Below, in pieces: positions 2,672 through 53,684 of a DNA stretch of 64,000 nt. How positions within the stretch are numbered: position 1 is the first letter of the stretch; each line of letters starts with the position of its first letter. This DNA is from Candidatus Cloacimonas acidaminovorans str. Evry (GTDB lineage: Bacteria > Cloacimonadota > Cloacimonadia > Cloacimonadales > Cloacimonadaceae): positions 2,084,654 to 2,148,653 of the forward strand of contig NC_020449.1 in NCBI RefSeq assembly GCF_000146065.2. Reading direction: 5' to 3'. The position numbers were made by a program, and so were the translations under genes. Under the pieces are notes generated by a model. That model saw only the letters and a program-made list of their open reading frames with translations. It ran no database searches and was not told where the DNA came from.

Positions 2672-3154
2672 TTTCTTACCTCACTTTTTTATTTTCTCTG
2701 GCTGATCTAAGCCATAATATTTTTTCAGTGATTAAAAGAGAATTTGGAAAATTTATTACTGCTCCCATCTCCAACTTTGGCAACTTATGCATCACTCCGC
2801 TAATAAAAGAAATATTTCTTTTATTCGGGCACTTCTTGAGTTTTGGAACACCCCAAAGTTTTGTTTCAGTACTCAACTTCTCATAAGACATAATATTATA
2901 TACTCCTAAGCTATTCATTATGAATAATAACAACAACTTAAAACCTCTTTATAATATTTTAATCCATAACTATCATTCTGGCAAGAAATATTTTTAATTT
3001 CCAAGAATTACAGAAAAAATAAGAAAGATGTTGACGAAATAACCGCCATCTACGGAAAATGCATTTATGCAGTTTTAGATTCCTGCTGGTGCAGGAAGGA
3101 TAAAGGTGAAAAGTAATACTAATATATACAGCAGTCCTAAAAAATGGAGAATAA
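2672..3154. other. Intergenic region between divergent genes
   Basis: Holds a doubtful 86-codon minus-strand ORF (2676-2936) with no recognisable family, a TATAAT at 2895-2900 read on the minus strand without a convincing -35, and the dispersed repeat at 3021-3090. mtnA is read rightwards from 3155. Nothing else is supported. Confidence 0.5.
3021..3090 (+). repeat. Dispersed repeat, copy 2
   Basis: Partner of 1299-1366: shares ACGAAATAACCGC and TTTATGCAGTTTTAGATTCCTG. In this copy the end forms a small palindrome, ATTCCTGC-tgg-TGCAGGAA, like the one at 34941-34966. Confidence 0.5.
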
Positions 3155-4189
3155 ATGCAAATAGACGGAAAACAATACCTTTCGGTATGGTTTGAAAACG
3201 AACGGGTTAAAATGATAGACCAGAATAAATTACCCTTTGAATTCCGCATTGCGGAATACAGTAATTATCTGGAAATTTGTGATGCCATCAGAGAAATGAC
3301 CGTTCGCGGAGCTCCTGCAATTGGAGCTGCAGGTGCTTATGCCATTGCCTTGGCAGCTCAAAATGCCCCGGAGGAAAAATTCCGTGCCTATTTACGAACT
3401 GCCAGAGATGAACTTATAGCTACGCGTCCTACAGCCATTGATCTTCGCAATGGGGTTAATTATGTTTATGAACAAACCATCAAGTTTATTCCTGATTATA
3501 GGCATTCGCGTCAGGTAGCTATTTTAGCGGCACGGGAATTTGCCAAAAAAAGCATTGATGACTGCTATCAAATAGGCAAAATAGGCAGTGAAATAGTTCC
3601 TCAGGGAGCTCGTATTCTAACTCACTGTAATGCAGGTGCGTTAGCAACTGTAGATTGGGGAACTGCTTTAGCTGTAATTCGGATTGCCCATCAACAAAAT
3701 AAGGATATATTTGTTTATGTGGATGAAACCCGTCCCCGTTTTCAAGGTGCACGCTTAACTGCCTTTGAACTGGAACAGGAAGGCATTCCGCATACGATAA
3801 TTACAGATAGCGCTAGCGGTTTTTATTTCTGGAAAAAGGAGATTGATTTGGTGATAACCGGTGCCGACAGAATTTGCCTTAATGGTGATATAGCTAATAA
3901 AATAGGCACTTATGAAAAGGCAGTGTTAGCCAAAGAACATAAAGTACCTTTCTATGTAGCGGCACCTTTTAGCACTTTTGATTTAACCACTAAAGAAGGA
4001 GCCGATATTCCTATTGAAATTCGGGATGAAGATGAAATTAAACGCATCAACGGAACCTATCTTGCCAATCCAGGTTCACCGGCATTAAATCCTTCTTTTG
4101 ATATAACTCCTGCCAAACTTATCACTGGAATAATCACTCCCAAAGGTATTTTTAAGCCCAAAGATGCAGCCAGGCAGGTACAGATATGA
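3155..4189 (+). CDS. mtnA: S-methyl-5-thioribose-1-phosphate isomerase
   Basis: Isomerises 5-methylthioribose-1-phosphate to 5-methylthioribulose-1-phosphate in methylthioadenosine salvage. The 344-residue length is normal for MtnA of the eIF2B-alpha-like family. Visible signatures are MTVRGAPAIGAAGAY (48-62), the catalytic cysteine in THCNAGALAT (Cys158) and the catalytic aspartate in ITGADRI (Asp238), followed by NGDIANKIGTY. A start at 3155 preserves the usual N-terminal strand. Its last four bases overlap the start of mtaD (ATGA), so the two are translationally coupled. No mtnK or mtnP lies nearby, so ribose-phosphate substrates fed by another phosphorylase are also possible. Confidence 0.93.
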   Translation: MQIDGKQYLSVWFENERVKMIDQNKLPFEFRIAEYSNYLEICDAIREMTVRGAPAIGAAGAYAIALAAQNAPEEKFRAYLRTARDELIATRPTAIDLRNGVNYVYEQTIKFIPDYRHSRQVAILAAREFAKKSIDDCYQIGKIGSEIVPQGARILTHCNAGALATVDWGTALAVIRIAHQQNKDIFVYVDETRPRFQGARLTAFELEQEGIPHTIITDSASGFYFWKKEIDLVITGADRICLNGDIANKIGTYEKAVLAKEHKVPFYVAAPFSTFDLTTKEGADIPIEIRDEDEIKRINGTYLANPGSPALNPSFDITPAKLITGIITPKGIFKPKDAARQVQI

Positions 4190-5505
4190 TTTTTGACATC
4201 GTTTTGGAAGGTGGCTCTATAATTACTATGGATGACAAAAACAGGATTTTGTCACAATCCTGTATAGCTATCAAAGATGGTAAGATACAGGCTATTTTCC
4301 CTATTGGCAGTTCCTCTTACGAAGCAAAGCAGAAAATAGATACCCGTAATTGTTTTATTATTCCCGGTTTAATCAATATGCATTCCCATTTGCCAATGAC
4401 CTATTTTCGCGGTTTGGCAGATGACCTGCCGTTAAATACTTGGCTGCAGAAATATATTTGGCCCCTGGAAGCAAAACTGATAAAACCACAATTGGTGTAT
4501 GATGCAACTCTTCACGGTGCCAGTGAAATGATTAAAAACGGAATCAGCACTACCAACGATATGTATTTTTGTATGAATTCTATAGCGGATGCCTGTTCCC
4601 AAGTCGGTTTAAGGGTTTTTATCAGTGAAGCGTTGATTGATAATGAATCCCCAAAAGAATATAGAGATAACACTATCGGAAGAAGAATTACTCAGCTGAA
4701 AGAAGAATATAAAGATAATCCGCTTATTGATTTTACTTTAGCTCCTCATTCTATATATGCTTGTAGTGCTCAGACCCTGAAAACCTGTGCTAAGATAGCA
4801 AAGGATAATAACATCCTAATTCATACTCATCTTTCCGAAATTAGGGAAGAAGTAGAGAATTGCCTTAAAATTCATAAATTGAAACCTGTGGAATATTTGA
4901 AAGAATTGGGTCTTTTAGAGGTGCGAGGTATTTTTGCTCATGGAATTTGGATTGAGGAAGAGGAAATGGAACTTTTAGCAGAAAAAGGGCTTAGCAGTAT
5001 TGCTATTTGCACAGAAAGTAACCTGAAACTCAGTTCCGGTTTTGCCCCTATTAAAAAGTATCAGGAAAAAGGCATCAATCTCTGTTTAGGCACCGATGGA
5101 GTTGCCAGTAACAATAATTTGGATTTACTTACAGAAATGTCTGTAACTGCCAAACTGCATAAAGCACTGAATAATGATCCTACAATGCTTCCCGCTCAAG
5201 AGGCATTCGCTTTTGTTACCATCAATGCGGCAAAGGCATTAGGTAAAGAAAAAGAACTTGGCTCACTGGAAACAGGTAAAATTGCCGATATTGCTGTTGT
5301 TTCTTTACAGGAACTGGAAAATAGTCCCGTTTACAATCCTTATTCGCTTTTGGTTTATGCCATAAACAGTCACAGCATTCGCGATATGATTATTCAGGGA
5401 AAAATAGTAATGCAAAACCGCCAACTCTGCAATGTAAATGAACAGCAGATTCTGGATAAGGCAGCTGAGTATAAGGAAATGATTTTACAGGCAACAGAAA
5501 AATGA
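4186..5505 (+). CDS. mtaD: 5-methylthioadenosine/S-adenosylhomocysteine deaminase
   Basis: Amidohydrolase-superfamily (ATZ/TRZ-like) deaminase that would convert MTA or SAH to the inosine derivative plus ammonia. The 439-residue chain has the metal ligands in place: HSH at 66-68 (NMHSHLP), HTH at 213-215, His252 (FAHGIW) and Asp304 ([10 protein letters not shown]). The segment [15 protein letters not shown] is typical of MtaD. It overlaps mtnA by 4 bp and smpB by 4 bp. Pairing with mtnA suggests methylthioadenosine is routed through methylthioinosine. Guanine or adenosine deaminase activity cannot be excluded from sequence. Confidence 0.88.
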
Positions 5506-5930
5506 AAACCATCAAAAATCGCCGTGCTGAGCACGATTACTTTATAATCCAAACCCTGGAAGCAGGTATTGCCCTAAAAGGAACGGAAATAAAATCCATT
5601 CGTGCCGGAAAAGTGAATTTTAAGGATAGCTATGCCAAAATTGAAGATGGAGAATGCTGGCTACATAATTTGCATATCAGTCCCTGGGAAAAAGCTGCCT
5701 ACTTTAATCACGAAGCGGAACGCAAACGGAAACTGCTGTTGCATAAACACGAAATAAGACGCTTAAAAACCAAAGTGGAAGAACAAGGTATGACTCTTAT
5801 TCCTTTGGAGTTATTCATCAATGATGAAGGACTTTGTAAAATAACCCTCGCTTTGGCTAAAGGGAAAAAGGCGTATGATAAAAGAGAAGTTATGCGCAAA
5901 AAAGACCTGGAAAGAGACCAGGAAGGTTGA
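5502..5930 (+). CDS. smpB: SsrA-binding protein SmpB
   Basis: Binds tmRNA and brings it to stalled ribosomes for trans-translation. 142 residues, slightly short of the usual 150-160. Typical features are [11 protein letters not shown] near the N-terminus, [19 protein letters not shown] in the OB-fold, HISPW, and the basic tail [16 protein letters not shown]. It overlaps mtaD by 4 bp, an odd companion for a metabolic gene; the overlap probably only reflects shared transcription. The tmRNA gene itself is not in this window. Confidence 0.95.
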
Positions 5931-6049
5931 TGTCCTCGTCAACTAAAGAAAAATATGTATACCGTAACAGTAGAATTTATCGGAAAAGATATTAACACGG
6001 TTAAAAATGAACGACGAGGATATCGTTCTTCCTAAGAAAAGGAAAGTAT

Positions 6050-7525
6050 ATGGAAAATCAAGTTACCCCATTTGAAACTCACCTAAACCGCATTACTTTT
6101 TTCCTGAACGGAGAAAAGATTACTGCAGATATTCCTGCCGGTCTTTCTACTCTGGATTGGCTGCATACTCAAAAACAGCTCTATGGAACAAAATGTAGTT
6201 GTAATGAAGGTGATTGTGGTGCCTGCACAGTTGTTATTGCCTACCCTTTTGAAGGCATAATTACTTATCAGGCAATAACCTCCTGCCTCTATCCTACAGC
6301 CAAATTACACGGTAAACACTTAATCACCATTGAGGGTTTGGGCACTCCGGAAAAATTGCATCCCATTCAGCAAGCCCTGTTAACAAATCACGCTATTCAA
6401 TGCGGTTATTGCACTCCCGGTTTAGTAATGAGTTTATTTGCTTTGTTTGCTATGCAGCCACACCCCGATAGAGAAATGACCTTATCTGCTCTGGAAGGAA
6501 ATCTTTGCCGTTGTGGCACTTATCAAAGTATATTAAATGCAGTGGATGAACTTGCCGCCAACCAAAGTGTAAAAGATATAGTCCCTGCCTGGTGTAGAGA
6601 AGTAGAAAAGGATTTATTCCGTTTTACCCCAAAAGAGGCAATGTTGGTTACTAAAACAGATATTCCCCAACAGGTTAACTGCTATTTAATCCCAACTACA
6701 ACTAAACAGCTTTTTGACCTTTATGCCGAACATCCGGAAAGTGTTTTTATTGCAGGCGGAACGGATATTATGGTGCAGAAAAATATTAACCGGAAGGAGT
6801 TTCCCTTTTTAATAGACCTTACCCAAATCCCGGAACTCAACCGTCTTTATCTGCAGCAGGATGGTTTGCATATTGGTTCTGCAGTAACCTACAATCAGCT
6901 TTGGGAATCCGGAATCGTAAAGACCGATTTTCCTGTTTTACATAATCTTATTGCCCAAATTGCTTCACGGCAGATACGCAATTTGGGAACTCTGGGAGGC
7001 AATATTGCCAATGCTTCACCTGTGGGGGATACTATACCTCTTTTAATGGTTTTAAATAGCTCTTTGTGGCTGCAATCCAAATTGGAATTGAGGCATTTAC
7101 CCTTAAAAGATTTCTTTTTAGGTTACCACAAAACAGCTCTGCAAAAGGGAGAAATTATCAAGGAAATCATTATTCCTCCGCTAACTGAAGACAATTATGT
7201 AAAAACCATTAAATCAGCCAAACGCAAGAGTGTGGATATTTCTTCCGTGATTACCGCAGTAAATATTGAACATAAAAACGGACGGATTACAAATTCCGCA
7301 TTGGCAATAGGTGGGGTTGCTGCCTTACCGCTCCTTTCCAGAAAATTCCCAAAACTATTGAAAAGTAAACAAATTAAAGCTCTTGATCCAGCTGTTATTA
7401 TAAAAGAAGTGGAAAGTGAATTTGAACCCTTAACCGATATTCGCGGAACTGCCTTATTTCGCAGAGAACTAATCCGCAATCATCTTATTTTATATCTGCA
7501 GGAACTACAGGAGGAAGAAAAATGA
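6050..7525 (+). CDS. Xanthine-dehydrogenase-type FeS/FAD subunit
   Basis: Electron-transfer subunit of a molybdenum hydroxylase. Residues 10-170 carry two [2Fe-2S] clusters: plant-type Cys51, Cys56, Cys59 and Cys79, then the helical-domain cluster Cys118, Cys121, Cys153 and Cys155 (QCGYCTPG, NLCRCGTY). From about residue 200 comes a CO-dehydrogenase-type FAD domain, with IAGGTDIMVQ and RNLGTLGGNIANASPVGD. The FeS and FAD parts are fused (491 residues), as in bacterial XdhA. The stop overlaps the start of the next gene by 4 bp. It probably passes electrons from the purine to NAD or ferredoxin. Confidence 0.9.
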   Translation: MENQVTPFETHLNRITFFLNGEKITADIPAGLSTLDWLHTQKQLYGTKCSCNEGDCGACTVVIAYPFEGIITYQAITSCLYPTAKLHGKHLITIEGLGTPEKLHPIQQALLTNHAIQCGYCTPGLVMSLFALFAMQPHPDREMTLSALEGNLCRCGTYQSILNAVDELAANQSVKDIVPAWCREVEKDLFRFTPKEAMLVTKTDIPQQVNCYLIPTTTKQLFDLYAEHPESVFIAGGTDIMVQKNINRKEFPFLIDLTQIPELNRLYLQQDGLHIGSAVTYNQLWESGIVKTDFPVLHNLIAQIASRQIRNLGTLGGNIANASPVGDTIPLLMVLNSSLWLQSKLELRHLPLKDFFLGYHKTALQKGEIIKEIIIPPLTEDNYVKTIKSAKRKSVDISSVITAVNIEHKNGRITNSALAIGGVAALPLLSRKFPKLLKSKQIKALDPAVIIKEVESEFEPLTDIRGTALFRRELIRNHLILYLQELQEEEK

Positions 7526-9789
7526 ACTCGGAGACATATCATCTTTCAGGAACCTTGCATCTTTGTGGAAAATCCCATTTTATAGCTGATGAACCACCTT
7601 TACAGGGAGAACTTTATGCCAAATTTCTCTTTTCTCCTGTAGCGCATTCCCTTATCACCAAATTAGACATATCTGCCGCTGCAAAAATGCCGGGTGTGGT
7701 GAAAGTTATCACTTCTGCCGATATTCCTGGGATAAATCAAATAGGCACAGTTATTAAGGATGAACCCCTTTTCCCAGAAAAGGAAATTATGTATGTAGGT
7801 CAGCCACTGGCAATGGTGCTGGCAGAAGATGAATATATAGCGGAACTTGCAGTTAAAAAGATTATTCTGAAATTGGAGGAATTACCTGCCATTTTTGCTC
7901 CTGAAGATGCCTACAGTAAAAAACAGGGATATATTCCCGAACGCAAAATAGAAAGCGGAGATATAGAAAATACCTTAAAAAATGCCCCTTACACCTTGAA
8001 AGGCAAAACGGCAACTACAGGTCAGGAACATTTTTATCTGGAAGGTCAACGCTGTTTGGCTATTCCTTTTGAGGGCAATAGAATCACTTTGCAGACAGCT
8101 ACTCAAAGCACAATGGAAGTTCAGGAAGTTGCTTCCCGGGTTTTAGGGATTCCGGCAAATGATGTAATCATAGAAGTTCCCCGTTTAGGGGGTGCCTTTG
8201 GCGGAAAAGAACGCGGAGCTACAATTTGGGCTTGTATGGCTGCCTTGGGTGCTTTTTTAACCCAAAAACCCGTTTTAGTAAAGCTCACTCGGGATGAGGA
8301 TATGCACTACACAGGTAAAAGGCATCCTTTCACTTCTCTGTGGCAAGTTGGCTATGATGAAACAGGCAAAATATTGGCTTACGATTTATTGCTTTTAGCC
8401 AACGGTGGTGCTTATACCGACCTTTCTATAGCCATTTTGGAAAGGGCTATGTTTCATAGCGATAATGCTTATTTTATACCTAATATTCGCATTAGGGGTT
8501 ATGCGTGCAGAACTAATTTACCTCCTAATACGGCTTTTCGTGGTTTTGGAGCTCCTCAGGGCATTTTTGTAATTGAAAACATAATGGATAAAATTGCCGC
8601 TCAGTTAGAGCTTGATCCTTTGGAAATACGCAAAAGGAATGCTTATCAGAATGGACAACTAACTCCTTACGGACAAGAAATAACGCAGAGTCAGTTAAAT
8701 AATATTTTCGCCAAATTGGCAGATAAAGCAAACTACGCTTTACTCCGGAAAGAAGTGGCTGAATTCAATAAACACAATTGTCGTTATAAACGCGGAATTG
8801 GTATTACTCCTGTAAAATTCGGCATTTCTTTCACTACTACCCTGATGAATCAAGGTTCTGCTTTGGTTTGGGTCTATATAGATGGTAGCGTTTCCGTTTC
8901 TACAGGAGGAGTGGAAATGGGTCAGGAACTTTCTACAAAAGTAGCAATCGTCGTTTCCCGGGTTTTGGGAATTCCGGTAAACAAAATTAGAGTGGAAAGC
9001 AGTAATTCTCAAAGAATTGGAAATGCATCACCTACAGCTGCTTCTACAGGAAGCGATATCAATGGCAATGCAGCACGCCTTGCTGCAGAAAAAATTAAAG
9101 ACAATTTAGCTCATTGTGCAGTTCGGCTAATTCAGCAGAAATATAACCAAACAATAGACATTAAAGATATTGTTTTCAAGGACAACAGGGTCTTTGGTAA
9201 AGAATATTCTGAAACCTGCGTAAGTTTTGAAGAATTGGTTCGTTTTGCCCATTCGGAAAGAGTTCCTTTAGCTGCTTACGGTTATTATAAAACTCCCGGG
9301 TTGTGGTTTGATAAAGAAAAGGGCTTGGGGCATCCTTTCCACTATTATGTTTATGGAGCTGGTTTAGCAGAAGTGGAACTGGATACTTTGCTGGGAGAAC
9401 ATAAAGTTCGCAAACTGATTATTGTTCACGAAAACGGAAATTCCTTAAATGAGGCAATTGACCGCGGACAAATTGAGGGAGCTGTTTTACAAGGAATTGG
9501 CTGGTGCACTATGGAAGACCTGAAATATGATGCAAAAGGGGTTTACCTCAGTGCCAATCCTTCTACCTATAAAATTCCCGATATTCGCGATTTACCCGAA
9601 AAATTGGTTATAGAAATAATTCCCTCCCTCACTGAAGAGGCAAGTGTTTTTGGCTCTAAAGGAATTGGTGAGCCACCTTTTATTTATGGACTTTCTGTCT
9701 TTTTTGCTTTGCAGTCCGCATTCAAAGAAGCAAATCCGGAAAAAGAACTTAGCTTTCCTGCCACTCCCGAATCCCTGATACAAAGATAA
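7522..9789 (+). CDS. Xanthine-dehydrogenase-type molybdopterin subunit
   Basis: Catalytic molybdenum-cofactor subunit, 755 residues. Family landmarks are TGQEHFYLEGQ (Gln168), GGAFGGKERGA (Glu230), NTAFRGFGAPQG (Arg340), GVEMGQEL and GSKGIGEPPF (Glu717, the general base). From memory of bovine xanthine oxidoreductase, Glu230 and Arg340 match Glu802 and Arg880, which bind purines, so a purine hydroxylase is more likely than an aldehyde or CO dehydrogenase. It is coupled to the FeS/FAD gene by a 4-bp overlap. The last codons and stop lie inside a copy of the composite intergenic repeat (9780-9818). No xdhC-like maturation factor is in the window. Confidence 0.9.
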   Translation: MNSETYHLSGTLHLCGKSHFIADEPPLQGELYAKFLFSPVAHSLITKLDISAAAKMPGVVKVITSADIPGINQIGTVIKDEPLFPEKEIMYVGQPLAMVLAEDEYIAELAVKKIILKLEELPAIFAPEDAYSKKQGYIPERKIESGDIENTLKNAPYTLKGKTATTGQEHFYLEGQRCLAIPFEGNRITLQTATQSTMEVQEVASRVLGIPANDVIIEVPRLGGAFGGKERGATIWACMAALGAFLTQKPVLVKLTRDEDMHYTGKRHPFTSLWQVGYDETGKILAYDLLLLANGGAYTDLSIAILERAMFHSDNAYFIPNIRIRGYACRTNLPPNTAFRGFGAPQGIFVIENIMDKIAAQLELDPLEIRKRNAYQNGQLTPYGQEITQSQLNNIFAKLADKANYALLRKEVAEFNKHNCRYKRGIGITPVKFGISFTTTLMNQGSALVWVYIDGSVSVSTGGVEMGQELSTKVAIVVSRVLGIPVNKIRVESSNSQRIGNASPTAASTGSDINGNAARLAAEKIKDNLAHCAVRLIQQKYNQTIDIKDIVFKDNRVFGKEYSETCVSFEELVRFAHSERVPLAAYGYYKTPGLWFDKEKGLGHPFHYYVYGAGLAEVELDTLLGEHKVRKLIIVHENGNSLNEAIDRGQIEGAVLQGIGWCTMEDLKYDAKGVYLSANPSTYKIPDIRDLPEKLVIEIIPSLTEEASVFGSKGIGEPPFIYGLSVFFALQSAFKEANPEKELSFPATPESLIQR

Positions 9790-14154: not shown

Positions 14155-14403
14155 ATGAACACAGACCAACTAATGACCCTTGCTGTAAACAAAAATGGCT
14201 TTGTTTTTGATCCTGAAAACGGGATAAGCTACACTGTAAACGAAACAGGCCTCTTTGTCTTACAGCAATTGCAATCAGGAGCTACCCAAGACGAAATTAT
14301 AAAATGTTTAACAGAAGAGTATGAGGTAACTGAAAAAAATGCTATTAGTGATGTAGATCATTTTATGGCAATGCTCAAAGCGTTGAATTTGATAGAGGAC
14401 TAA
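14155..14403 (+). CDS. PqqD-like (RRE-fold) small protein
   Basis: 82 residues. The pattern of a winged-helix PqqD-like protein is visible: an N-terminal strand (FVFDPENGISYTVNETGLFVLQ), then GATQDEIIKCLTEEYEV and a C-terminal helix with LIED. PqqD-type domains (RiPP recognition elements) usually hold a peptide substrate for modifying enzymes; some stand-alone versions have unknown roles. Here it opens a seven-gene run and is followed after 4 bp by an ATP-grasp ligase, which suggests it serves that enzyme. No short precursor peptide gene is evident next to it, so the protein could itself be a carrier or regulator. Confidence 0.7.
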   Translation: MNTDQLMTLAVNKNGFVFDPENGISYTVNETGLFVLQQLQSGATQDEIIKCLTEEYEVTEKNAISDVDHFMAMLKALNLIED

Positions 14404-14407
14404 TAGT

Positions 14408-15475
14408 ATGCTGCAATTAAATGATTTACAGATCAGCATTGCTGTATCTGGTCTTAAAACAGGTGATAATCCTCAACCCGGAATTCCGGTAATTCGTTCT
14501 CTTAGAGCCGCTGGTTTTAAAGGTAAAATAATCGGCTTTGTTTATGATGCAATGGAATCTGGAATATATTTAGATGATATAGCAGACGAGATTTATCAAA
14601 TGCCTTATCCTTCTACCGGTGCAGAATCATTTTTAACACGCTTGAATTATATCCATTCCAAAAGTAAAATTGATGTGATTATTCCAACTTTGGATTCTGA
14701 GATTCCGCTTTATATCCGCTTACACAAGGAGCTTAATGCACTTGGTATTCATACATTTATCTGCACAGAAAAGCAATTTAACCTGCGTGATAAGAGCAAA
14801 CTATTTCAATATTTTACTTCCAAAGATGTTGCTGTTCCTAAGACCGTCCTTTTAAATAGTGTTGCAGAAATAAACAAAGCAATTCAAGACATAGAGTTTC
14901 CGGTTTTTATTAAGGGTCGTCTCTACGAAGCATATAGAGCCAATAATATTATAGAAGCGCAAAAGTATTTTTGGGAACTGCAGGCAAAATGGGGCTTACC
15001 GGTTATTATGCAAGAACTTATGGAAGGTGATGAATTTAATGTTGTTATTGTAGGGGATGGCAAAGGAAACTGCCTGGGGATGGTTCCACAGCGTAAACTG
15101 GTTATAACAGATAAGGGTAAAGGTTTTGGAGGGGTAGTAGTAAACAATCCTGCTCTGGAAAAGTTTGCTCGTAAAATAATCCAGATTCTTTCTTGGCGTG
15201 GGCCCTGCGAACTGGAAATTATCAAGGATAAAGAGGGTGCTTTTCATTTACTGGAAATTAATCCTCGTTTTCCTGCCTGGGTTCGTTTAGCGGAAGGTAG
15301 TGGCCAAAATCAACCTGCGGCAACAGTTTTACTTGCTTTGGGTGAAATAATTGAGGAATTGCCTCCTTTTAAACCTGGAGTTCTTTTTATCCGTCATTCA
15401 GAAGATATAATTAGTGACATAAACCTTCTGGGTGAGATTTCAGTTAATGGCGAACTGATAAGAATGCATAAATAA
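14408..15475 (+). CDS. ATP-grasp amide/peptide ligase (CarB/biotin-carboxylase-like)
   Basis: 355 residues. The N-terminal part is a Rossmann-like pre-ATP-grasp domain (ISIAVSGLKTGDNPQPGIPV, then DVIIPTLDSEIPLYIRLH). The ATP-binding half includes FPVFIKGRLYEA, the QELMEGDEFNVVIVGDGKG segment and the magnesium site CELEIIKD...LLEINPRFPAW. Such enzymes join a carboxylate to an amine through an acyl-phosphate. The substrate is unknown; the position between a PqqD-like protein and an amino-acid decarboxylase suggests an amino-acid-derived product. An upstream GAGG precedes the ATG. It is not a full carbamoyl-phosphate synthase because only one ATP-grasp unit is present. Confidence 0.82.
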   Translation: MLQLNDLQISIAVSGLKTGDNPQPGIPVIRSLRAAGFKGKIIGFVYDAMESGIYLDDIADEIYQMPYPSTGAESFLTRLNYIHSKSKIDVIIPTLDSEIPLYIRLHKELNALGIHTFICTEKQFNLRDKSKLFQYFTSKDVAVPKTVLLNSVAEINKAIQDIEFPVFIKGRLYEAYRANNIIEAQKYFWELQAKWGLPVIMQELMEGDEFNVVIVGDGKGNCLGMVPQRKLVITDKGKGFGGVVVNNPALEKFARKIIQILSWRGPCELEIIKDKEGAFHLLEINPRFPAWVRLAEGSGQNQPAATVLLALGEIIEELPPFKPGVLFIRHSEDIISDINLLGEISVNGELIRMHK

Positions 15476-15488
15476 AAGAGGAAATAAA

Positions 15489-16838
15489 ATGAAAAAACAT
15501 TATACTGCTCCCTACATTGAACGTAATAGCTCTGGAAATCTTAATAAATATGCCCACACAACGGTTGTCCGACATCAAGATAACATAGATGGAGTTCCGA
15601 TTAAGACCTTAGTACAGAAGTATGGAACACCCTTGTTTGTTTTTTCCGAAAAACAGATTAGACGAACCTACCGGCGTTTGCTGGAAACAATCCGTATTCA
15701 TTATCCTAAAGTAGATATTGTTTGGAGCTATAAAACTAATTATTTGGCTGCTATCTGTAATATTTTTCATCAGGAAGGTGCCCCGGCAGAAGTAGTTAGT
15801 AGAATGGAATATGAAAAAGCCAGGAGTAATGGCATTCCTGGAAACAGGATATATTTTAATGGCCCTTCTAAACGCAAGCAAGATTTGCAAATAGCTATTA
15901 AGGAAGGTGCCTATATACATATTGATCACTTAGAAGAACTGTATCAAATTGAAAATATTGCCGAAGAGCTTGCCATAAAACCCAAAGTTGCTATTCGCGT
16001 AAATATGGATACAGGGATTAGTCCAATGTGGACTCGTTTTGGCTTTAATTATGAAAATGGGGAAGCGTATCGAACAGTGCAGCGTCTTATTTCCGGAAAC
16101 AAAGTTCAGCTGGTTGGTTTGCATACCCATATTGGCACTTTTATTTTAGATCCCAATGCTTATTATTGGGCAGCTACCAAACTTCTAAATTTCGCTCAAA
16201 CTATTAAGGATAATTTTGGTATTGTATTGGATTATATAGATATGGGAGGAGGTTTTGCTTCGAATAATACTCTAATTGATCAATACACTCCGGGAGAATT
16301 GGCTTCACCATCTTTTGAACAGTATGCTGAGGCAATAGGAACTGCTTTTAATGCTTCTCATTATGTGAAAGAATATCACCCCCGTTTAATTTTGGAAACT
16401 GGAAGGGTGTTAATTGATGAATCGGGTTATCTTATTGCCAGTGTTCTTGGCAAAAAGAATCTTCCCACAGGTGAGCGAGCTGTAATTTTGGATGCAGGAG
16501 TGAATATAAACATCACTGCCTGGTGGTATAAACAACGCGTTTTACCTACCAAACCATTTCCAGGAACCTATCAAAACACCGTTTTCTATGGTCCTCTGTG
16601 TATGAATATTGATGTAATTAGAAGTGCAATGCCTTTTCCTGATCTTTATTATGGCGATACAGTTATTATTTCACCTGTTGGTGCTTATAATGTAACTCAG
16701 TGGATGCAGTTTATAGAATATCGTCCCAATGTCTGCCTAATAAACGAAACCGGTGAAGTAGATGTTATTCGTTCCCAAGAAGATCTTTCAGATCTAACTT
16801 CCCGAGAATATATTCCAGATCACTTACGGCAAATATGA
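15489..16838 (+). CDS. Fold-III PLP-dependent decarboxylase (LysA-like)
   Basis: 449 residues of the alanine-racemase / diaminopimelate-decarboxylase fold. The PLP lysine is in WSYKTNY (Lys82). Also seen are HTHIG (212-216), the phosphate-binding DMGGGFAS (251-258), ETGR (303-306) and the catalytic Cys-x3-Asp of GPLCMNID (Cys371, Asp375), which marks decarboxylases rather than racemases. An N-terminal extension of about 30 residues precedes the barrel. It probably decarboxylates a basic or acidic D/L-amino acid, but its place between an ATP-grasp ligase and an envelope protein argues against plain lysine biosynthesis. It overlaps the next gene by 4 bp. Confidence 0.82.
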   Translation: MKKHYTAPYIERNSSGNLNKYAHTTVVRHQDNIDGVPIKTLVQKYGTPLFVFSEKQIRRTYRRLLETIRIHYPKVDIVWSYKTNYLAAICNIFHQEGAPAEVVSRMEYEKARSNGIPGNRIYFNGPSKRKQDLQIAIKEGAYIHIDHLEELYQIENIAEELAIKPKVAIRVNMDTGISPMWTRFGFNYENGEAYRTVQRLISGNKVQLVGLHTHIGTFILDPNAYYWAATKLLNFAQTIKDNFGIVLDYIDMGGGFASNNTLIDQYTPGELASPSFEQYAEAIGTAFNASHYVKEYHPRLILETGRVLIDESGYLIASVLGKKNLPTGERAVILDAGVNINITAWWYKQRVLPTKPFPGTYQNTVFYGPLCMNIDVIRSAMPFPDLYYGDTVIISPVGAYNVTQWMQFIEYRPNVCLINETGEVDVIRSQEDLSDLTSREYIPDHLRQI

Positions 16839-19021
16839 ACTGGTCACGATTTTTCCGGTCTGTGGGGTCTGTGTTTTTAGCTATTCCAGATAGCTATGCC
16901 ACAATTTTGTTTTCGGATTCAGTGCTTTTAGGATTGATGTTGCTTACGATTACTTTACTATCTCCTGTTGTAGGTTTATCTGGTTTATTTTCTTTAATTG
17001 TGGCAATTTTGGCAGCAAGAATTTTGGGCTTTGAGCATTGGGAATCAAGTAGTGGGATAACTGCTTTCAATTCACTTTTAGCAGGTATGATGGTTGGTTA
17101 TTACTATCCGATGCAAATTATCAGCAGTTCATCTATAAATTATCTTTGTTTTCTGCTGTTAGTTTCTCTTTTCACTCTTTTACTATACTTGTTTAGCAGC
17201 TATCTTTTTCAACAATTCTTCCGTTTACCTTCAATGAGCTTATCTTTTTCCATAGTAGCTATACTTTTATGGTATTATTTTGCTCGCAAAGGGTATTTAT
17301 CCAATTATCCATTTGATAAAATACTGCTTTTCAGTCCGACACTCAAGTTACCTGAATTTTGGCGTTTATTCTTTATTTCTTTGGGTTCTATCTTTTTTAC
17401 TCCGGAAGTTTCTGCAGGCATCTTAGTTTCTATAGCTTTACTAATAATTACGCGCATCGGATTTGGCTTAGCACTTTTAGGATGGACGCTAAATTATATA
17501 TTAATGCGTTTGGCGGGTGTGCAACCAGGAAGCGGAGTTTTCTATTCAGGTTTTAATGCTATTTTAATTATGTATGCCGTTGCGGGAATATATCTTTTGC
17601 CAGGTAAAAGTTCCATTTTGATTGGGTTAATTGCAACCGGAATTGGCTTTTTATTTACTGCCTTATTCAATGTTGTATATTATTACTACAATGCTTTTAC
17701 TGGCTTATATACCCCTCTGGCGGTTCCAGTTTTTGCTTTTCCGTTCAATATAGTTGTTTTACTAGTAATTTTCAGTTTGCGTTTACGGCTGAAAGTGGAT
17801 AAACCTGTAATGAATGATTATGGTGTTTTCAATCCCGAATTGGCTTTGCAGACCTATCAGGAACGCTATAAAAGGTTTAGCCATTTAGGTATCCCTCAAT
17901 TTGCTATGCCTCTAAATGGTTTGTGGACTATCACTCAAGGAAACAATGGGATCTATACTCATAAATTGGATTGGGCTTATGCTTGGGATTTTGAAATGCT
18001 GAATAGTGAAGGGAGAAACTACGATAAAGAAAACAATAATTTAAATGACTATTTTTCTTTCGGTAAACCGGTTCTTGCTTCAGCGGCAGGTTCTGTAGTT
18101 AAAATTTGTGAAGGAGTAGCGGATAATCCTATTGGCCAGGTTAATACTAAGGAGAATTGGGGTAATTATGTTTGCCTTTCTCACAGCTACGGACTTTACT
18201 CTTTTTATGCACATCTCAAACAGGGTAGCATCAGAGTTAAAGTTGGCGATTATATTCAAAAAGGGGATTGTATTGCTCAATTAGGAAATTCAGGACGCTC
18301 AGCAGTTCCGCATTTACATTTTCAAGTTCAATTGGGAATTGAACCCGGCAGTCCAACCCGTCTATCACATTTAATTAACTACAAACTTATCAAGGAAGAT
18401 AAAACCCTTGAATTTATCGGTAGTGGTATTCCCAAGGAAAAAGAAACTCTTTCTGCATTAGTAGCAGAACCCCATTTACAAAGTATTTTAGCTTTACAAC
18501 AGCAAAACGAACAGCAGCTAAAAGTTACCCGCGGTAAAAAACAAAGCACCGAATTATGGAAAGTACATCTTGATCTTTGGGGCAATTTCACCATTAAATC
18601 TACTAAACATACCGACCTGAGCTTCAGCGTTTATGATGGAATTTATAATGCTCTTTCTTTAAAAGGAAATCGTAAAAGTGCTCTTACAGCTTTTGCTTTG
18701 TTAATTTCCCGTCTACCATACAGTGAAAAACAGGAAATCTACTTATCTGATGAACCGGCTCTTTCTGTAATTATCAGTCCTGCGTTACGGCATATAGTAT
18801 TACTTTTCAGCCCCTTATTTCCTCTTTTTTCTGCTTGTGTACACAGTAAAATAAAGGTCAATTCAGATTTTATTGAAGTAGAAAGCGATATCACATACCG
18901 TATTTTGGGTATTCCATATAGAAACAGAACAGGAAATGTAAGTATAGAAAAATATAAGGGATTAGCGGCTTTGGAACTAAAGAAGGGTAAAAAAACCTTA
19001 CTAAAAGCCGAAACAATTTAA
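16835..19021 (+). CDS. Urea-transporter-like membrane domain fused to M23 peptidase
   Basis: 728 residues in two halves. Residues 1-320 are strongly hydrophobic, about ten membrane spans, with the internal duplication of urea transporters: GITAFNSLLAGMMVG (74-88) and SGFNAILIMYAVAG (238-251), followed by LAVPVFAFPFN. Residues about 350-515 are a LytM/M23 metallopeptidase: zinc-ligand candidates His376 and Asp385 (YAWDF), then FYAHL (His460) and HLHF (His493, His495). The remainder (520-728) is unassigned. The fusion joins a channel fold to a cell-wall or peptide endopeptidase. Whether urea is carried is unknown; another small amide or amine made by the upstream enzymes is an alternative. Confidence 0.82.
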   Translation: MNWSRFFRSVGSVFLAIPDSYATILFSDSVLLGLMLLTITLLSPVVGLSGLFSLIVAILAARILGFEHWESSSGITAFNSLLAGMMVGYYYPMQIISSSSINYLCFLLLVSLFTLLLYLFSSYLFQQFFRLPSMSLSFSIVAILLWYYFARKGYLSNYPFDKILLFSPTLKLPEFWRLFFISLGSIFFTPEVSAGILVSIALLIITRIGFGLALLGWTLNYILMRLAGVQPGSGVFYSGFNAILIMYAVAGIYLLPGKSSILIGLIATGIGFLFTALFNVVYYYYNAFTGLYTPLAVPVFAFPFNIVVLLVIFSLRLRLKVDKPVMNDYGVFNPELALQTYQERYKRFSHLGIPQFAMPLNGLWTITQGNNGIYTHKLDWAYAWDFEMLNSEGRNYDKENNNLNDYFSFGKPVLASAAGSVVKICEGVADNPIGQVNTKENWGNYVCLSHSYGLYSFYAHLKQGSIRVKVGDYIQKGDCIAQLGNSGRSAVPHLHFQVQLGIEPGSPTRLSHLINYKLIKEDKTLEFIGSGIPKEKETLSALVAEPHLQSILALQQQNEQQLKVTRGKKQSTELWKVHLDLWGNFTIKSTKHTDLSFSVYDGIYNALSLKGNRKSALTAFALLISRLPYSEKQEIYLSDEPALSVIISPALRHIVLLFSPLFPLFSACVHSKIKVNSDFIEVESDITYRILGIPYRNRTGNVSIEKYKGLAALELKKGKKTLLKAETI

Positions 19022-19039
19022 TAAATAAGGAGTTATATC

Positions 19040-19642
19040 ATGAAACGAATTATTCTACCCTGTCTCCTTATCTTGGCTGCAGGGTTTCTTCTGGGGCAGG
19101 GTAAGGCATCTATTACTGATTCTTATAATGCTGAGACCGCCAGAAATTATACGCGTGCACTACAAATTATGGAAGACCTAAGTGCAAACGATCCCAATGA
19201 CGAATTTTACATTTTACGCATTGCCTGGTTGCAGTATCTCTTAGGGAGTTATAATGAATCAATGAAAAACTATCAGAAATCCAATAACCTATATCCTTCC
19301 TTGGATGCACAAACTGGTATTCTGAATTGTCAATTAGCTTTAGGGATGTGGAATGAAGCCCATAATCAAGCAGAGCATATTCTGCAGAATTTTCCTCAGA
19401 ATATAGCTGTTCTCAGTAAAGCTGCTTATTCCACCTATATGCTTCAAAATTATAGAGCTACAGCAGATTATTATCAAAGAATTGTTAATATATTCCCTTG
19501 GGATATGGAATCGCGTGGTTATCTGGTAAACAATCTGTACCTTTCCAAGGATATAGAAAATGCTCGCCAGCATTATCAAATCTTAAAGAAATATGCTCCC
19601 GATTCTGCTATGGCAAAGGAATATTCTAAGATATTCAAATAA
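19040..19642 (+). CDS. Secreted tetratricopeptide-repeat protein
   Basis: 200 residues with a signal peptide (MKRIILPCLLILAAGFLLGQ). The mature part is made of about four TPR-like helical pairs, for example ARNYTRALQIMEDLSANDP, YNESMKNYQKSNNLYPS and YRATADYYQRIVNIFPWDM. A clear GGAG lies 9 bp before the ATG, and the stop is 4 bp from the next gene. TPRs mediate protein contacts; in this cassette it probably scaffolds periplasmic or outer-membrane partners. No enzymatic motif seen. Confidence 0.75.
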   Translation: MKRIILPCLLILAAGFLLGQGKASITDSYNAETARNYTRALQIMEDLSANDPNDEFYILRIAWLQYLLGSYNESMKNYQKSNNLYPSLDAQTGILNCQLALGMWNEAHNQAEHILQNFPQNIAVLSKAAYSTYMLQNYRATADYYQRIVNIFPWDMESRGYLVNNLYLSKDIENARQHYQILKKYAPDSAMAKEYSKIFK

Positions 19643-19646
19643 CTAA

Positions 19647-20849
19647 ATGCGTTATTTTTGGCTGATTCTTCTTATTATCCCCTGTCTGCTTTTTTCAGAA
19701 GATATTGTTACCTTGCCATTTAACCTTATTTCCACTGCCTATAATAATATGCTTACCGGAAACTATGAAATAGCCGAAAAACAATATCAACAATTAACCA
19801 TTTTATATCCACAAGAAAGAAGCGGTTGGGAAGGATTACTTTGGTCTCAAAATGCTCAGGGCAAATTTCATAAATCTCTGAAAACCTTTTCAAATGCCAA
19901 AACAAAACTGCCGGAATTAGATGGAATTTATAACTATTATGCCTTTGCCTTATATCAGCAAAACCGTTTGCCTGAAGCAAGGTATTATTATAAACAAGCT
20001 TTAGATAATATGCCTGCAAATCCTTTGGCGAATCAAGTTTCCTGTGAAGGTTTAGCTTACACCTATCTGGCTTTGGATAATTATCCTAAAGCACAAAAAT
20101 ATTTTTCTAAGGCAGCTTTTATTAGCGGCAGGCAAATGTCCGCTATAAAACCGTCTTTTAATAGTACTGTCTATTACAAAGTTCCAGGAACAGAAAAAAA
20201 TGCCTATGGTTTTAGGCAATCTGCCAAATATAAATGTGCAGAGCTTAAGCTAAATTATGAATATTTTCAATTGGATAATGCCTTTTTCCGGGATCTATAT
20301 AAAGCAGATTTTACTTACCAATTCATTCCTTTGGAAGTAGGCATCAATGGATCTTATCTTTCTGGAGAAGATGCCAGAGTTTATCCTGCCTGGCAGTTAG
20401 GAATGGAATTATGTCCAAAACTGTATCCGGGAAAAATTGTTTTGAACCCAGAGCTTTTTGTCTCTTTCAGTCATTATCCACGTTTTGATGTTCAGCAGAT
20501 AAGTTTGCAGCCTCAAGTTCTTTGGCGTGATTTTTATTTTTCTTATGCTTTGCATAGTGCGTTTATGGATAATGAACCCGCAGAAACGGATAGCGTTCAT
20601 TTTGCTCAACAGTTTTGCCTAACAAAATCTCTTCCGTATAGTTTTGAGCTTGGTTTTCATTATGGAGCAGGAAACGATACTTGGATAATAGATAATTCTG
20701 GAGTGATTATAGATACCTTCAATCAAAATGGTTCTTATTATGGAATCTCCTTAGGTAAGGAATTTTTCAAGCATCTCTATTTATATGGTTATTATCAAAA
20801 GTGGGATAGCGAAGACCTTTTCTATTTTTCGCTTTCAGGTTATTATTAA
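19647..20849 (+). CDS. TPR protein with C-terminal outer-membrane barrel
   Basis: 400 residues. A signal peptide (MRYFWLILLIIPCLLFS) is followed to about residue 165 by TPR units (NYEIAEKQYQQLTILYPQE, NRLPEARYYYKQALDNMP, YPKAQKYFSKAAF). From about 180 onwards the sequence changes to alternating aromatic strands (KLNYEYFQLDNAFF, LYLYGYYQKW) and ends FYFSLSGYY, as in outer-membrane barrels. The architecture is reminiscent of TPR-porin export proteins (PelB/PgaA/BcsC-like), although much smaller. Export of the cassette's product or anchoring of the neighbouring lipoprotein is a reasonable guess. Confidence 0.7.
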   Translation: MRYFWLILLIIPCLLFSEDIVTLPFNLISTAYNNMLTGNYEIAEKQYQQLTILYPQERSGWEGLLWSQNAQGKFHKSLKTFSNAKTKLPELDGIYNYYAFALYQQNRLPEARYYYKQALDNMPANPLANQVSCEGLAYTYLALDNYPKAQKYFSKAAFISGRQMSAIKPSFNSTVYYKVPGTEKNAYGFRQSAKYKCAELKLNYEYFQLDNAFFRDLYKADFTYQFIPLEVGINGSYLSGEDARVYPAWQLGMELCPKLYPGKIVLNPELFVSFSHYPRFDVQQISLQPQVLWRDFYFSYALHSAFMDNEPAETDSVHFAQQFCLTKSLPYSFELGFHYGAGNDTWIIDNSGVIIDTFNQNGSYYGISLGKEFFKHLYLYGYYQKWDSEDLFYFSLSGYY

Positions 20850-23563
20850 TGCGTCGTATCTTTTTTTTCTTGTTATTAATTGTTTTGCTTGCTTCCTGTA
20901 ACTTACGGGAAAATTTATTGTTACCCCCAGAAATTTCTGCAGCAGATTATCAAACGGGGAACACTATCAAGGTCTATTCCGATTATTTAATTAAAGCCGC
21001 AAATGACGATTCCTATTTAATGCTACACAAAGAATCCATTGCCGATGAATTAATTCACTTAGGTGACGAAATTGTTTTTCGTAAAGTGAAAACATTTGTT
21101 ATGCGAGATTCCTTGGGCTTTCAAAATAATGCCGAAGCAAAAAGTAATACCTATCAATTTGGCGTTATACGTTCCGGTACTATAATAGACCTTATTGCTT
21201 CTATCAATATGGCCGAAATATACACTGAAATAAAACCGAGTTCAGATCCATTTTATTTAGTTAGTTTCAATTATTATCTGCAAGCCAATCCTATAAATCC
21301 TACATATTATAATAAGCGCAGAGCTTATTTTCCTATATCGGCTACAGGTGAATATGCTCTATTGTCTATACCTGAAGAGGATAATCCTACCCTGCAACAT
21401 AACGGTAGGGATAATTTCTATGCTGTTTTGCTTAATAACACGGGAGCCCAGGTAGCGGTAAATTTTCCTGCTGCATACACATCTATGGCTGGAAATATAA
21501 CTATTAGGTTGAAAGATAATTTAACCGATTACAATAAATTAACTGCCTACTACCCCAATGCGGCTATATCTTATCCTGTTGTAGAGTTACAAACTGAAAA
21601 AGCAATCGGCAACTGCCTTGCTTACTTAAGAATATTAAATGCAGGAAAGGGATTTTTTAGCAGACAGTGGATTCATCTATCAGAAAATTCTGTATACAGC
21701 TGGTCTGAAAACGATCCTGTGTCCGGAACTTCCAACTGGTGGATAGATGAAACAGGTCTATACAGTTTTTTAAAAGGCAGCGGTGAATATTTCCTGTTAA
21801 GCCCTTTGGAAAATCAACAGGAAATATCCGTCCCCTTAGATGGAAGCGTTAATAGTGTATTTTTACAACAGGTCTGGTTCGATTTACGCTCAATTTCTTT
21901 ACCGGAAACCCAGATGAAAGTTAATATCGCTCCCGATATTTCTTCCATACTGGCCGATTACTTTCAAAATAATCCCTATTCTTTCAATTCCCCTGTGCAG
22001 GCATTCGTAATCAATTTTTATAAAGATTCTGAACTTATAGCTACCCTACCTGAAAATAACTGGATCGAATTTGGCTTTTTCACCAACCAAACAGAGAATA
22101 ATAAAAACCGCCTATTTAGTGTTTGTCGTAATAACCTTCAGGATATTATTACTTATAAAAGCCCAGGAACAAGCTATGATGCCAATCATTATATCCAAGT
22201 TAATTCCTATATCTATTCTGGGATAACATCTTCTGCAGCATATCTTTATGGCTGTTTACAAACAGCTCCCTCGCAGTTGAAAGTTCCTTATTATAAAAAT
22301 CGCCAATACCTGCAAACCGAAAATGCCATTATTAGTTGGTGGAATGCCGATAAAACTGATTATGATTATCTTATTCTAAATTTAAAACCTGCTTTTCCCA
22401 ATCATCCTTGGCTGAAAGGAGAACCGTTTTATATCAGCGCAGCGAGTTCATTAGCCGATTTTTGTTTCTATACGCATAATGAAAAGCAAAGCTCTTTGCC
22501 TTCGGGTTTTTATCTTGCTTTACCTGTTTTCAACCCGCAAGAAAATTATCTTCTATTTTCCACTTTTCCTTATTCGCGCCTAAAAAATTATCTGCAGGGA
22601 ACAGCAAATTGTTATGTCCAAAAGAACTGGCTGAATATCTATCCCGAATTTCCCGGGATGATTATTAATTGCAAAATAAACTATACCAATCCGTTTAAAC
22701 TGAGAACTTATTCCACAATGAACTTCTTCTGGAATGATCTCATTTTTTATACTTATGGCAATGCCCCTCAAGAAACAAACACAATTTTCAGCTTTTATAA
22801 AACTAATACACTTGCAGATCCCTATCGCATTCTTTCCAATCAATATAACCTCAGTTACTCTTCTGCTGTATATCAGGTAAGTTCAGATTCCGAAGAAAAT
22901 TTTGCTCTCTTTCAGCCAGTGCTCTTTTTCCCACGCACTGCAAAAGGACAGAATCTGCTCTTTTATGAAAAAACAGAACCCTTCTATCGACTTTATGCTT
23001 TTTATGAAAGCGCTTCTTACGATCCCTGGTATTTTTATATTGATAATGGATTTAATGGTATTGCTTTAGCTAATAGCGGTTCCTATGCCTCCTTTGTAGA
23101 TAATAACCCTCATAATAGTGTAAGCGTTTCTGTTAGAAACTCCACTCAAGATGAAATCGTCTCACTCTATCAGGTACAGTTTGTGCTACCAAACTATTTT
23201 ATTAATAAGGGTGTGCCTTCAGGGTCAATTCTCAATTTGAGCAAATTGAATTATGTTTCTGGAGTTGATAATCTCTTGGCAGCTTATCAGCTTAGTGTGT
23301 CAACTCCCACGGGAGAGCCAATTAATCCAGATTTTTACAATATTATCGGAGCACAACAAGAACCCTATATTTATCTCCCTATTACAGAAGTAGCTACTAT
23401 TAAAACTGCTCATTTGTTTTACCGCGATCAATTAGGAAATGTAACAGAACTAAACCGAGTGGATAGTTTTAGCGCTAATTATGCGAATGAATATATTGTT
23501 GTAGGAAATTGCTTTATCTGTACTGTTCCCAATCCGGGGATTTTTTATATCACCAAATTCTAA
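20849..23563 (+). CDS. Large lipoprotein of unknown function
   Basis: 904 residues with a lipoprotein signal (MRRIFFFLLLIVLLASCN; lipobox LASC, Cys about residue 17). The rest is rich in beta-strands, Asn, Tyr and Ser, with recurring short motifs such as GEYALLS, GLYSFL, GSYASF and PGIFYI that suggest several beta-sandwich modules. No known domain was recognised. The start shares one base with the stop of the previous gene (TAATG). As the last member of the cassette it probably sits on the outer membrane with the TPR/barrel protein. Confidence 0.72.
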   Translation: MRRIFFFLLLIVLLASCNLRENLLLPPEISAADYQTGNTIKVYSDYLIKAANDDSYLMLHKESIADELIHLGDEIVFRKVKTFVMRDSLGFQNNAEAKSNTYQFGVIRSGTIIDLIASINMAEIYTEIKPSSDPFYLVSFNYYLQANPINPTYYNKRRAYFPISATGEYALLSIPEEDNPTLQHNGRDNFYAVLLNNTGAQVAVNFPAAYTSMAGNITIRLKDNLTDYNKLTAYYPNAAISYPVVELQTEKAIGNCLAYLRILNAGKGFFSRQWIHLSENSVYSWSENDPVSGTSNWWIDETGLYSFLKGSGEYFLLSPLENQQEISVPLDGSVNSVFLQQVWFDLRSISLPETQMKVNIAPDISSILADYFQNNPYSFNSPVQAFVINFYKDSELIATLPENNWIEFGFFTNQTENNKNRLFSVCRNNLQDIITYKSPGTSYDANHYIQVNSYIYSGITSSAAYLYGCLQTAPSQLKVPYYKNRQYLQTENAIISWWNADKTDYDYLILNLKPAFPNHPWLKGEPFYISAASSLADFCFYTHNEKQSSLPSGFYLALPVFNPQENYLLFSTFPYSRLKNYLQGTANCYVQKNWLNIYPEFPGMIINCKINYTNPFKLRTYSTMNFFWNDLIFYTYGNAPQETNTIFSFYKTNTLADPYRILSNQYNLSYSSAVYQVSSDSEENFALFQPVLFFPRTAKGQNLLFYEKTEPFYRLYAFYESASYDPWYFYIDNGFNGIALANSGSYASFVDNNPHNSVSVSVRNSTQDEIVSLYQVQFVLPNYFINKGVPSGSILNLSKLNYVSGVDNLLAAYQLSVSTPTGEPINPDFYNIIGAQQEPYIYLPITEVATIKTAHLFYRDQLGNVTELNRVDSFSANYANEYIVVGNCFICTVPNPGIFYITKF

Positions 23564-38849: not shown

Positions 38850-39287
38850 TCAGAATTCAAGGTTGATAGTAACCGGACCTTCATTTACAAGTTCTATCTG
38901 CATTTTTGCGGCAAAAATACCTGTTTGGACATTAATATTGTTCTGTTTAAACAGATGCACAAATTCCTCATAGAGTTCTTTTGCTTTTTCCGGAGAAGCA
39001 GATTGGGTAAAATCGGGTCTGCGTCCCCTTTTACAATTGGCATAGAGGGTAAATTGAGAAATAACTAAAACCGAACCCTGAATATCTAAAACACTTTTAT
39101 TCATTTTGTCATTTTCATCATTAAATATACGCAGTTCCAAACATTTCCGCACAGCAAGAGGTAAAATTTCAAAGGCATCGTTAGTAGCAAAACCGACAAA
39201 AATTAGAAGACCGTTCTCTATTTTGCCGACAATTTCGTTATCTACATAGCAGATTGCTTTACTAACTCTTTGCAGGGTAATACGCAT
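38850..39287 (-). CDS. dtd: D-aminoacyl-tRNA deacylase
   Basis: Removes D-amino acids mischarged on tRNA. 145 residues, standard Dtd length. Diagnostic motifs are MRITLQRVSKA at the start, SQFTLYANCKRGRRPDF in the middle (the SQFTL active site) and the cross-subunit NEGPVTINLEF at the C-terminus. It shares one base with the upstream lipoprotein gene and is the last gene of the mre operon. Confidence 0.96.
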   Translation of the reverse strand: MRITLQRVSKAICYVDNEIVGKIENGLLIFVGFATNDAFEILPLAVRKCLELRIFNDENDKMNKSVLDIQGSVLVISQFTLYANCKRGRRPDFTQSASPEKAKELYEEFVHLFKQNNINVQTGIFAAKMQIELVNEGPVTINLEF

Positions 39288-44945: not shown

Positions 44946-45012
44946 CTTATATCCCTATTAAAAAAGGGTATTATATTTTTACTAAGCTTATCCTGAAGAG
45001 GAAAATTCGGGT

Positions 45013-53531: not shown

Positions 53532-53684
53532 TTTTTGTTTCAATATAGAGAAAAAGCCAGGCAAACAATGTCACATAACTGGTAAAGCTTAATGCTGCTT
53601 CATTCCTGATCTGACATAGTTCACTTGCAGTTATTGCATTGCGCCTGGCAAATTCAGAGATTTTTCTCTCGCTTATTTTGTCAA

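Follow-up and report, generated by a model that had tools for sequence, protein, structure and literature searches.

The stretch of 64,000 nucleotides of the Candidatus Cloacimonas acidaminovorans str. Evry genome analyzed in this work (contig NC_020449.1, positions 2,084,654 to 2,148,653; hereafter the window) carries a cassette of seven genes, the products of which we regard, with moderate confidence, as one functional module, with its biosynthetic half in the cytosol and its other half in the membrane and envelope. Six genes make up its core; the TPR-barrel fusion and the lipoprotein of 904 aa are confined to some Cloacimonadota families. The gene set and its order are conserved and its members depend on each other at the genome level; the active sites are intact, and the decarboxylase (DeC) has lost the residues reading diaminopimelate (DAP) and bears a conserved disordered tail. 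Six mutually dependent genes, spread over at least six phyla and carried by cultivated thermophiles from vents as well as by a bacterium from a digester, point to an undescribed metabolite or envelope function.

Since the chemistry of pyridoxal 5'-phosphate (PLP) requires a free α-amine, we infer that the ATP-grasp enzyme should join an amino acid to its partner via the side chain. The bond could link, for instance, an amine and the γ-carboxyl of glutamate, or a carboxylic acid and the amine at the end of the side chain of ornithine, lysine or a homologue. DeC would then strip the α-carboxylate of the conjugated residue, which would leave a γ-aminobutyryl amide or a diamine acylated on one amine. 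The PqqD protein, as a recognition element (RRE) of the kind known from ribosomally synthesized and post-translationally modified peptides (RiPPs), would have DeC as its client and grip its YxxPxI tail, coupling the decarboxylase to the ligase. The UT channel, the M23 domain (probably cytoplasmic), the outer membrane (OM) barrel and the periplasmic TPR protein would move or process the product or a substrate, the channel cargo and the M23 target being a guess within this scheme. The features are as follows.

14155-14403, + strand: PqqD-fold RRE-like protein of the lasso-B1 type, 82 aa (Pfam PqqD, 58 bits)
14408-15475, + strand: ATP-grasp ligase, PRK12767-like, 355 aa (Pfam ATPgrasp_Ter, 42.7 bits)
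15489-16838, + strand: fold-III PLP decarboxylase (DeC), 449 aa (Pfam Orn/DAP/Arg decarboxylase, N-terminal part 117 bits, C-terminal part 40 bits)
15489-15563, + strand: leader-like N-terminal tail of DeC, YxxPxI.....GxxNK(F/Y)G (residue conservation, low pLDDT)
16835-19021, + strand: UT-fold/M23 fusion with an additional C-terminal beta domain, 728 aa (Pfam UT and Peptidase_M23; structure model)
16880-17773, + strand: UT domain, residues 16-313 (Pfam UT, 150.6 bits; aligned with dvUT over its length)
18062-18334, + strand: M23 domain, residues 410-500 by Pfam (Peptidase_M23, 65.8 bits; metal-site residues H376, D385, H460, H493, H495)
19040-19642, + strand: secreted TPR protein, core member (Pfam TPR; kept in nearly all intact loci)
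19647-20849, + strand: TPR protein with a C-terminal barrel-like part, Cloacimonadota form (Pfam TPR)
20849-23563, + strand: lipoprotein, 904 aa (LPAM_1 lipobox)

The seven open reading frames (ORFs) occupy positions 14155-23563 of the + strand with inter-gene gaps of 4/13/-4/18/4/-1 bp; thus the co-directional arrangement and the families named in a preliminary description of this DNA agree with both the ORF coordinates and the Pfam matches. The genome itself is a single contig of 2,246,820 bp.

Distribution and association of the cassette genes

Two samples were searched: 125 genomes of Cloacimonadota and a wider set of 387 genomes including other phyla (about 262 of them outside the phylum of the window). 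The UT domain scored above the cut-off in 37 of the 125 Cloacimonadota genomes, nearly always in a frame of ~690-780 aa, i.e., of the size of the fusion. About 20 Cloacimonadota loci (read to 10 kb) share the order PqqD, ATP-grasp, DeC, UT-M23, TPR despite differing flanks, the TPR-barrel and lipoprotein genes being added in some families; homologues of the 904-aa lipoprotein were found in some Cloacimonadota families only, and none was detected outside the phylum in the loci read. In Cloacimonadota the presence of the cassette is patchy, also within the family, as expected of a unit lost or moved as a whole. Plasmid copies of it were sought, and merely stray relatives of single proteins came up.

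Outside the phylum of the window, a full UT domain was present in 14 genomes, and the search with the DeC profile (A1) found DeC in the same 14 of 14, with G220 counted as positive though most of its DeC is masked: the 9,000 bases directly upstream of its UT-M23 gene (locus L088) are N, which conceals most of the cassette. The profile separates members (>560 bits) from paralogues (<245 bits), the gap between them being empty apart from fragments. The loci from other phyla contain PqqD, ATP-grasp, DeC and UT-M23 in unchanged order, usually followed by TPR. DeC occurs in 42 of the 136 genomes of the phylum of Desulfurobacterium thermolithotrophum (G134), and in 3/52, 1/7 and 4/5 genomes of the phyla of G204, G381 and G317, respectively, which are separate phyla; the remaining positives fall outside these four, so the module spans at least six phyla. 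Desulfurobacterium (G134) and Thermovibrio ammonificans (G526) are among the carriers. A contig scan with a single protein matched Cloacimonadota only, and the other phyla came from the search of the wider genome set. The linkage and order of the cassette are thus kept in Cloacimonadota and at least five other phyla.

In some genomes the linkage is lost. G502 (Aquificota, genus g313) has PqqD on contig C8, ATP-grasp on C20, DeC on C12 and UT-M23 on C7, with all four present, and in G517-G519 (Aquificota, g316) UT-M23 lies apart from the PqqD/ATP-grasp/DeC triad, again with all four retained. The retention of the four core genes on separate contigs therefore indicates a functional tie and excludes simple hitch-hiking. 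This also answers the objection foreseen in the preliminary description, that homologues scattered without linkage would speak against a common function, since the genes co-occur in the genome where their linkage is lost. Pairwise distances of the four core proteins correlate as well (r 0.72-0.95 overall).

The leader-like tail of DeC and the PqqD protein

In 25 non-redundant DeC members, the tail is conserved at P8 (100%), Y5 (96%), I10 (88%), G16 (96%), N19 (96%) and K20 (92%), while residues 1-30 have no secondary structure and pLDDT of 42-57 in the AlphaFold2 model, versus >80 in most of the core. It is a property of all DeC members, absent from their paralogues, whose matches to the profile begin at position 19 or later. 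The full motif was found in 28 of 458 ORFs, and the bare YxxPx[IL] in three ORFs other than DeC. The spacing of Y5-P8-I10 equals that of the YxxPxL leader motif bound by lasso B1 proteins, which need Tyr-17, Pro-14 and Leu-12 of the leader (PMC10368454). The PqqD protein, with invariant G15, F16, F18, D19, G23, N29 and D66, matched in PDB (profile A4) only TfuB1, TbiB1 and two PqqD-family/lasso chaperone entries, that is, it has the PqqD fold of lasso-B1-type RREs with known leader complexes. No small precursor-like ORF with the leader motif was found in the cassette loci L065-L105. Considering the YxxPxI tail, the lasso-B1 type of the PqqD protein and this lack of a precursor ORF with the motif, PqqD is predicted most likely to dock the decarboxylase via its tail. 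The earlier suggestion that PqqD holds a precursor peptide thus loses ground, as none was found in these loci and the matching leader-like motif lies on DeC. The C-terminus of PqqD was also considered as a carrier end of the LysW type and rejected, its residues being not conserved. If the relation between tail and RRE is true, RREs also serve to organise complexes of enzymes that do not make peptide natural products.

The same tail might itself be the substrate: PqqD would present it, ATP-grasp would attach a residue to it (e.g., at Asn-Lys), DeC or a partner subunit would decarboxylate the attached residue, and M23 would free the product at the channel mouth, in the manner of carrier-protein pathways. 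We consider this improbable, although it accounts for the recognition part YxxPxI being followed by a separately conserved GxxNKFG, as in precursors built of leader and core, and would suit the cytosolic position of both the ligase and (by topology) the peptidase; besides, BtrK acts on a glutamylated carrier protein (PMC7857480). The conservation of the putative attachment site speaks otherwise, as K20 is replaced with V in L097 and the segment of the tail containing it is missing in L100. An evolutionary version, in which an RRE moved from peptide-antibiotic biosynthesis to a general role, the leader became permanently fused to an enzyme, and the tail serves as both docking handle and attachment 'core' for the amino acid that is ligated, decarboxylated and released in a trans-envelope module, seems to us equally improbable.

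Unlikely too is an ordinary RiPP pathway, with a precursor encoded elsewhere, bound by PqqD, modified by ATP-grasp and DeC, cut by M23 and exported by UT. The lasso-B1 type of PqqD is what one would expect of it, and peptide pathways do employ ATP-grasp enzymes as well as decarboxylases of the MccE type; against it are the location of the motif on DeC rather than on any small ORF of the cassette loci and the absence of RiPP enzymes among the annotated neighbours scanned, which cover part of the flanks only.

The membrane and envelope half

The model of the UT-M23 protein (pLDDT 89) consists of parts matching urea transporters and LytM/M23 domains. The UT part aligns end to end with dvUT, without an extra helix before M23, and the C-terminus of known urea transporters is cytoplasmic; by this analogy, M23 probably lies where the UT C-terminus does, in the cytoplasm. 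The charges at the ends of the UT part (K+R vs D+E of 2.0 vs 0.3 at the N-terminal and 2.9 vs 0.8 at the C-terminal end, with a neutral middle loop) agree with a cytoplasmic C-terminus. H376, D385, H460, H493 and H495 of the peptidase are invariant in 30 proteins, which gives the complete H..D, H, HxH metal site. A haloarchaeal M23 protein close to this domain is encoded at 2572-3645 of locus L108, a plasmid of Halocatena marina.

As for the cargo, the fold is that of a urea channel, and the residues lining the slot are different. In dvUT the urea slot is lined by Gln24 and Glu187; in the 30 aligned proteins the Glu187 equivalent is S/A/V/T/G, and the Gln24 position is taken by T/S/A/G/E/D. 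Judging from these sequences, urea is a doubtful cargo, because the Glu187 equivalent is not kept, and the passage of small amides, assumed previously, is weakened on the same ground.

The partners of the fusion appear to be exported. In Aquificota a barrel-like exported protein of ~290 aa is encoded between UT-M23 and TPR; the barrel partner has a signal peptide and C-terminal aromatic endings (...GYRF, ...SYSF, ...TTF, as judged by eye), by which it is predicted to be an OM barrel. Homology between the Cloacimonadota TPR-barrel protein and the Aquificota barrel is unsupported (hhalign probability 23%).

With an inverted UT, M23 would be periplasmic and the cassette would modify peptidoglycan or the envelope, a decarboxylated amine being attached to stem peptides or trimmed on them. 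The intact metal site of M23, the exported OM barrel and TPR partners and the pseudo-symmetry of UT folds are in line with this, and nevertheless we assign it a low probability. The positive charge at both ends of UT, the neutral loop in the middle and the absence of an additional helix before M23 argue against the inversion; moreover, the G255 protein has no M23, and haloarchaea, organisms without peptidoglycan, have relatives of this M23 type. The action on peptidoglycan and the delivery from the periplasm proposed in the preliminary description are weakened accordingly.

The substrate of the decarboxylase and comparison with known systems

Among curated models, DeC scored highest with FslC, the N-citrylornithine decarboxylase (225.8 bits vs a cut-off of 500), its lysA score being 214.9 (vs 297.9), and its closest solved structure by both sequence and predicted fold is likewise an N-citrylornithine decarboxylase (30% identity, TM 0.79-0.86). 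Of its initial designation as a LysA-like decarboxylase, the fold-III decarboxylase part stands, and the LysA label does not. Across 17 homologues there is no variation at K82, GGG253-255, R306, W346, C371-M372, D375 and Q404. The substrate pocket of FigC is lined by T327, T330, Y331, M355, H357 and R387, and DAP decarboxylase has at the matching sites Arg343 and, following the catalytic Cys, an acidic residue (PMC7857480). The equivalents in DeC are T343, W346, Y347, M372, I374 and Q404, with C371-M372 corresponding to C354-M355 of FigC. The position of Arg343 is occupied by T343 (T/S across homologues) and that of the acidic residue by Met in 17 of 17, while H357, R387 and N389, by which FigC reads citrate, are replaced with I374, Q404 and M406, so that DeC differs from N-citrylornithine decarboxylases as well. 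The pocket appears to have no residue that could hold citrate, DAP or a basic side chain, and a substrate without charge at its far end is expected; the pocket residues therefore restrict the choice to conjugated amino acids of this kind. FigC, SbnH, AcsE, MccE and BtrK form one clade which, DAP and D-ornithine decarboxylases excepted, acts on amino acids that are already conjugated and takes no part in polyamine metabolism (PMC7857480). By K82, GGG253-255, R306, C371 and its top matches to FigC, DeC would fit this clade 2 of conjugate-acting fold-III decarboxylases; curated models, structure matches and residues together place it in the conjugate-decarboxylating group, and the cassette is not a known set of biosynthetic enzymes.

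That DeC is the organism's DAP decarboxylase for lysine synthesis, standing beside unrelated genes, is very improbable: its lysA score of 214.9 bits and the fact that no gene in the genome of the window passes the lysA cut-off favor it, but T/S at the Arg343 position and Met after Cys in all 17 homologues, the second, LysA-type decarboxylase of some cassette genomes (G320, G381) and the co-occurrence with UT-M23, which has no role in lysine synthesis, do not fit. The reservation that DeC might be the only LysA of the genome thus holds in so far as the genome has no gene above the lysA cut-off, and fails as DeC itself is devoid of DAP-reading residues. The sole other LysA-type homologue in this genome (G000:C1:1354281-1355393, locus L103) has an ornithine-decarboxylase-like GPTCDSMD loop. 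At 4789-7411 of L107 (G320) a second ATP-grasp gene adjoins one for a LysA-like decarboxylase that lacks the leader-like tail, possibly a further ligase-decarboxylase pair.

In the ATP-grasp enzyme the Mg/ATP-site residues E283, N285 and R287 are near-invariant and the family signature is RFPAW (A2 alignment); E268, E283, N285 and R287 are kept in all aligned proteins except the second copy in G255, so by sequence the site expected of an ATP-grasp amide ligase is in place. That second copy belongs to tandem ATP-grasp genes at 5332-7468 of L100, where it has lost metal-site residues (ITDLKTQF for IEINPRF), and where UT is without M23. At 12571-12915 of L126 the TPR gene overlaps at its end with a gamma-glutamyl cyclotransferase-like gene (PF06094, a superfamily to which butirosin BtrG belongs); the gamma-glutamyl chemistry hinted at by it was not accepted, as it occurs in one locus only.

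Several points weigh against the module as proposed. UT-M23 and the triad lie on different contigs in G131; the UT of G255 lacks M23, and this genome has an additional degenerate ATP-grasp; in the incomplete genomes G333 and G379 the UT fragments stand at contig ends with DeC not found, as also in G076, where UT is at a contig edge. A free α-amine would make the product cationic, a poor fit to a UT channel. In lasso leaders G follows L by ~4 residues, while in DeC it follows I by 6, and the tail might instead act as a substrate segment or as a binding site for ATP-grasp.

A riboswitch that could name the product was sought, with no Rfam match near the window cassette or in nine other loci. Anti-phage defence was discarded, as PADLOC gave no match, and so was mobile or phage origin, as PHROGs matched solely generic M23 domains. 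Elsewhere, the window contains a bacterial small signal recognition particle RNA (53552-53650, - strand, 74.8 bits), a cell-shape cluster mreB-mreC-(unassigned ORF)-mreD-PBP2-rodA (39287-46050, - strand) and, at 4186-9789, an amidohydrolase gene adjoining those of a two-gene xanthine-dehydrogenase-like molybdenum enzyme.

No NCBIfam, PHROGs or PADLOC family describes the gene set and no paper on it was found among the open papers of PMC, in accordance with the initial impression that no characterised system has it. The rhizoferrin enzymes FslC/FigC are the nearest curated and solved relatives of DeC, with the Cys-Met loop in common and, on the specificity helix, the Thr; unlike them, DeC has an extra tail and replaced citrate-reading residues, and the cassette contains no gene for a nonribosomal peptide synthetase-independent siderophore (NIS) synthetase. 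Butirosin BtrI-BtrJ-BtrK resembles the cassette in combining a small protein, an ATP-grasp enzyme and a fold-III decarboxylase acting on conjugated glutamate (BtrK: PMC7857480); however, the small protein of the cassette is PqqD and not an acyl carrier, and the cassette has membrane/envelope partners, the like of which accompany neither FslC nor BtrI/J/K. In that set BtrI is the carrier and BtrJ the ATP-grasp ligase. With lasso B1 proteins (TfuB1, TbiB1, PadeB1; YxxPxL leaders) the cassette shares the RRE type and the motif spacing, but its motif is on the N-terminus of an enzyme and no precursor was found nearby; neither B2 protease nor lasso cyclase was seen among the cassette genes or the scanned flanking proteins, no genome-wide search having been made. 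Finally, with the urea transporters dvUT and UT-B the UT domain shares the fold over its whole length, and it differs from them in its fusion to M23 and in having S/A/V/T/G in place of Glu187.

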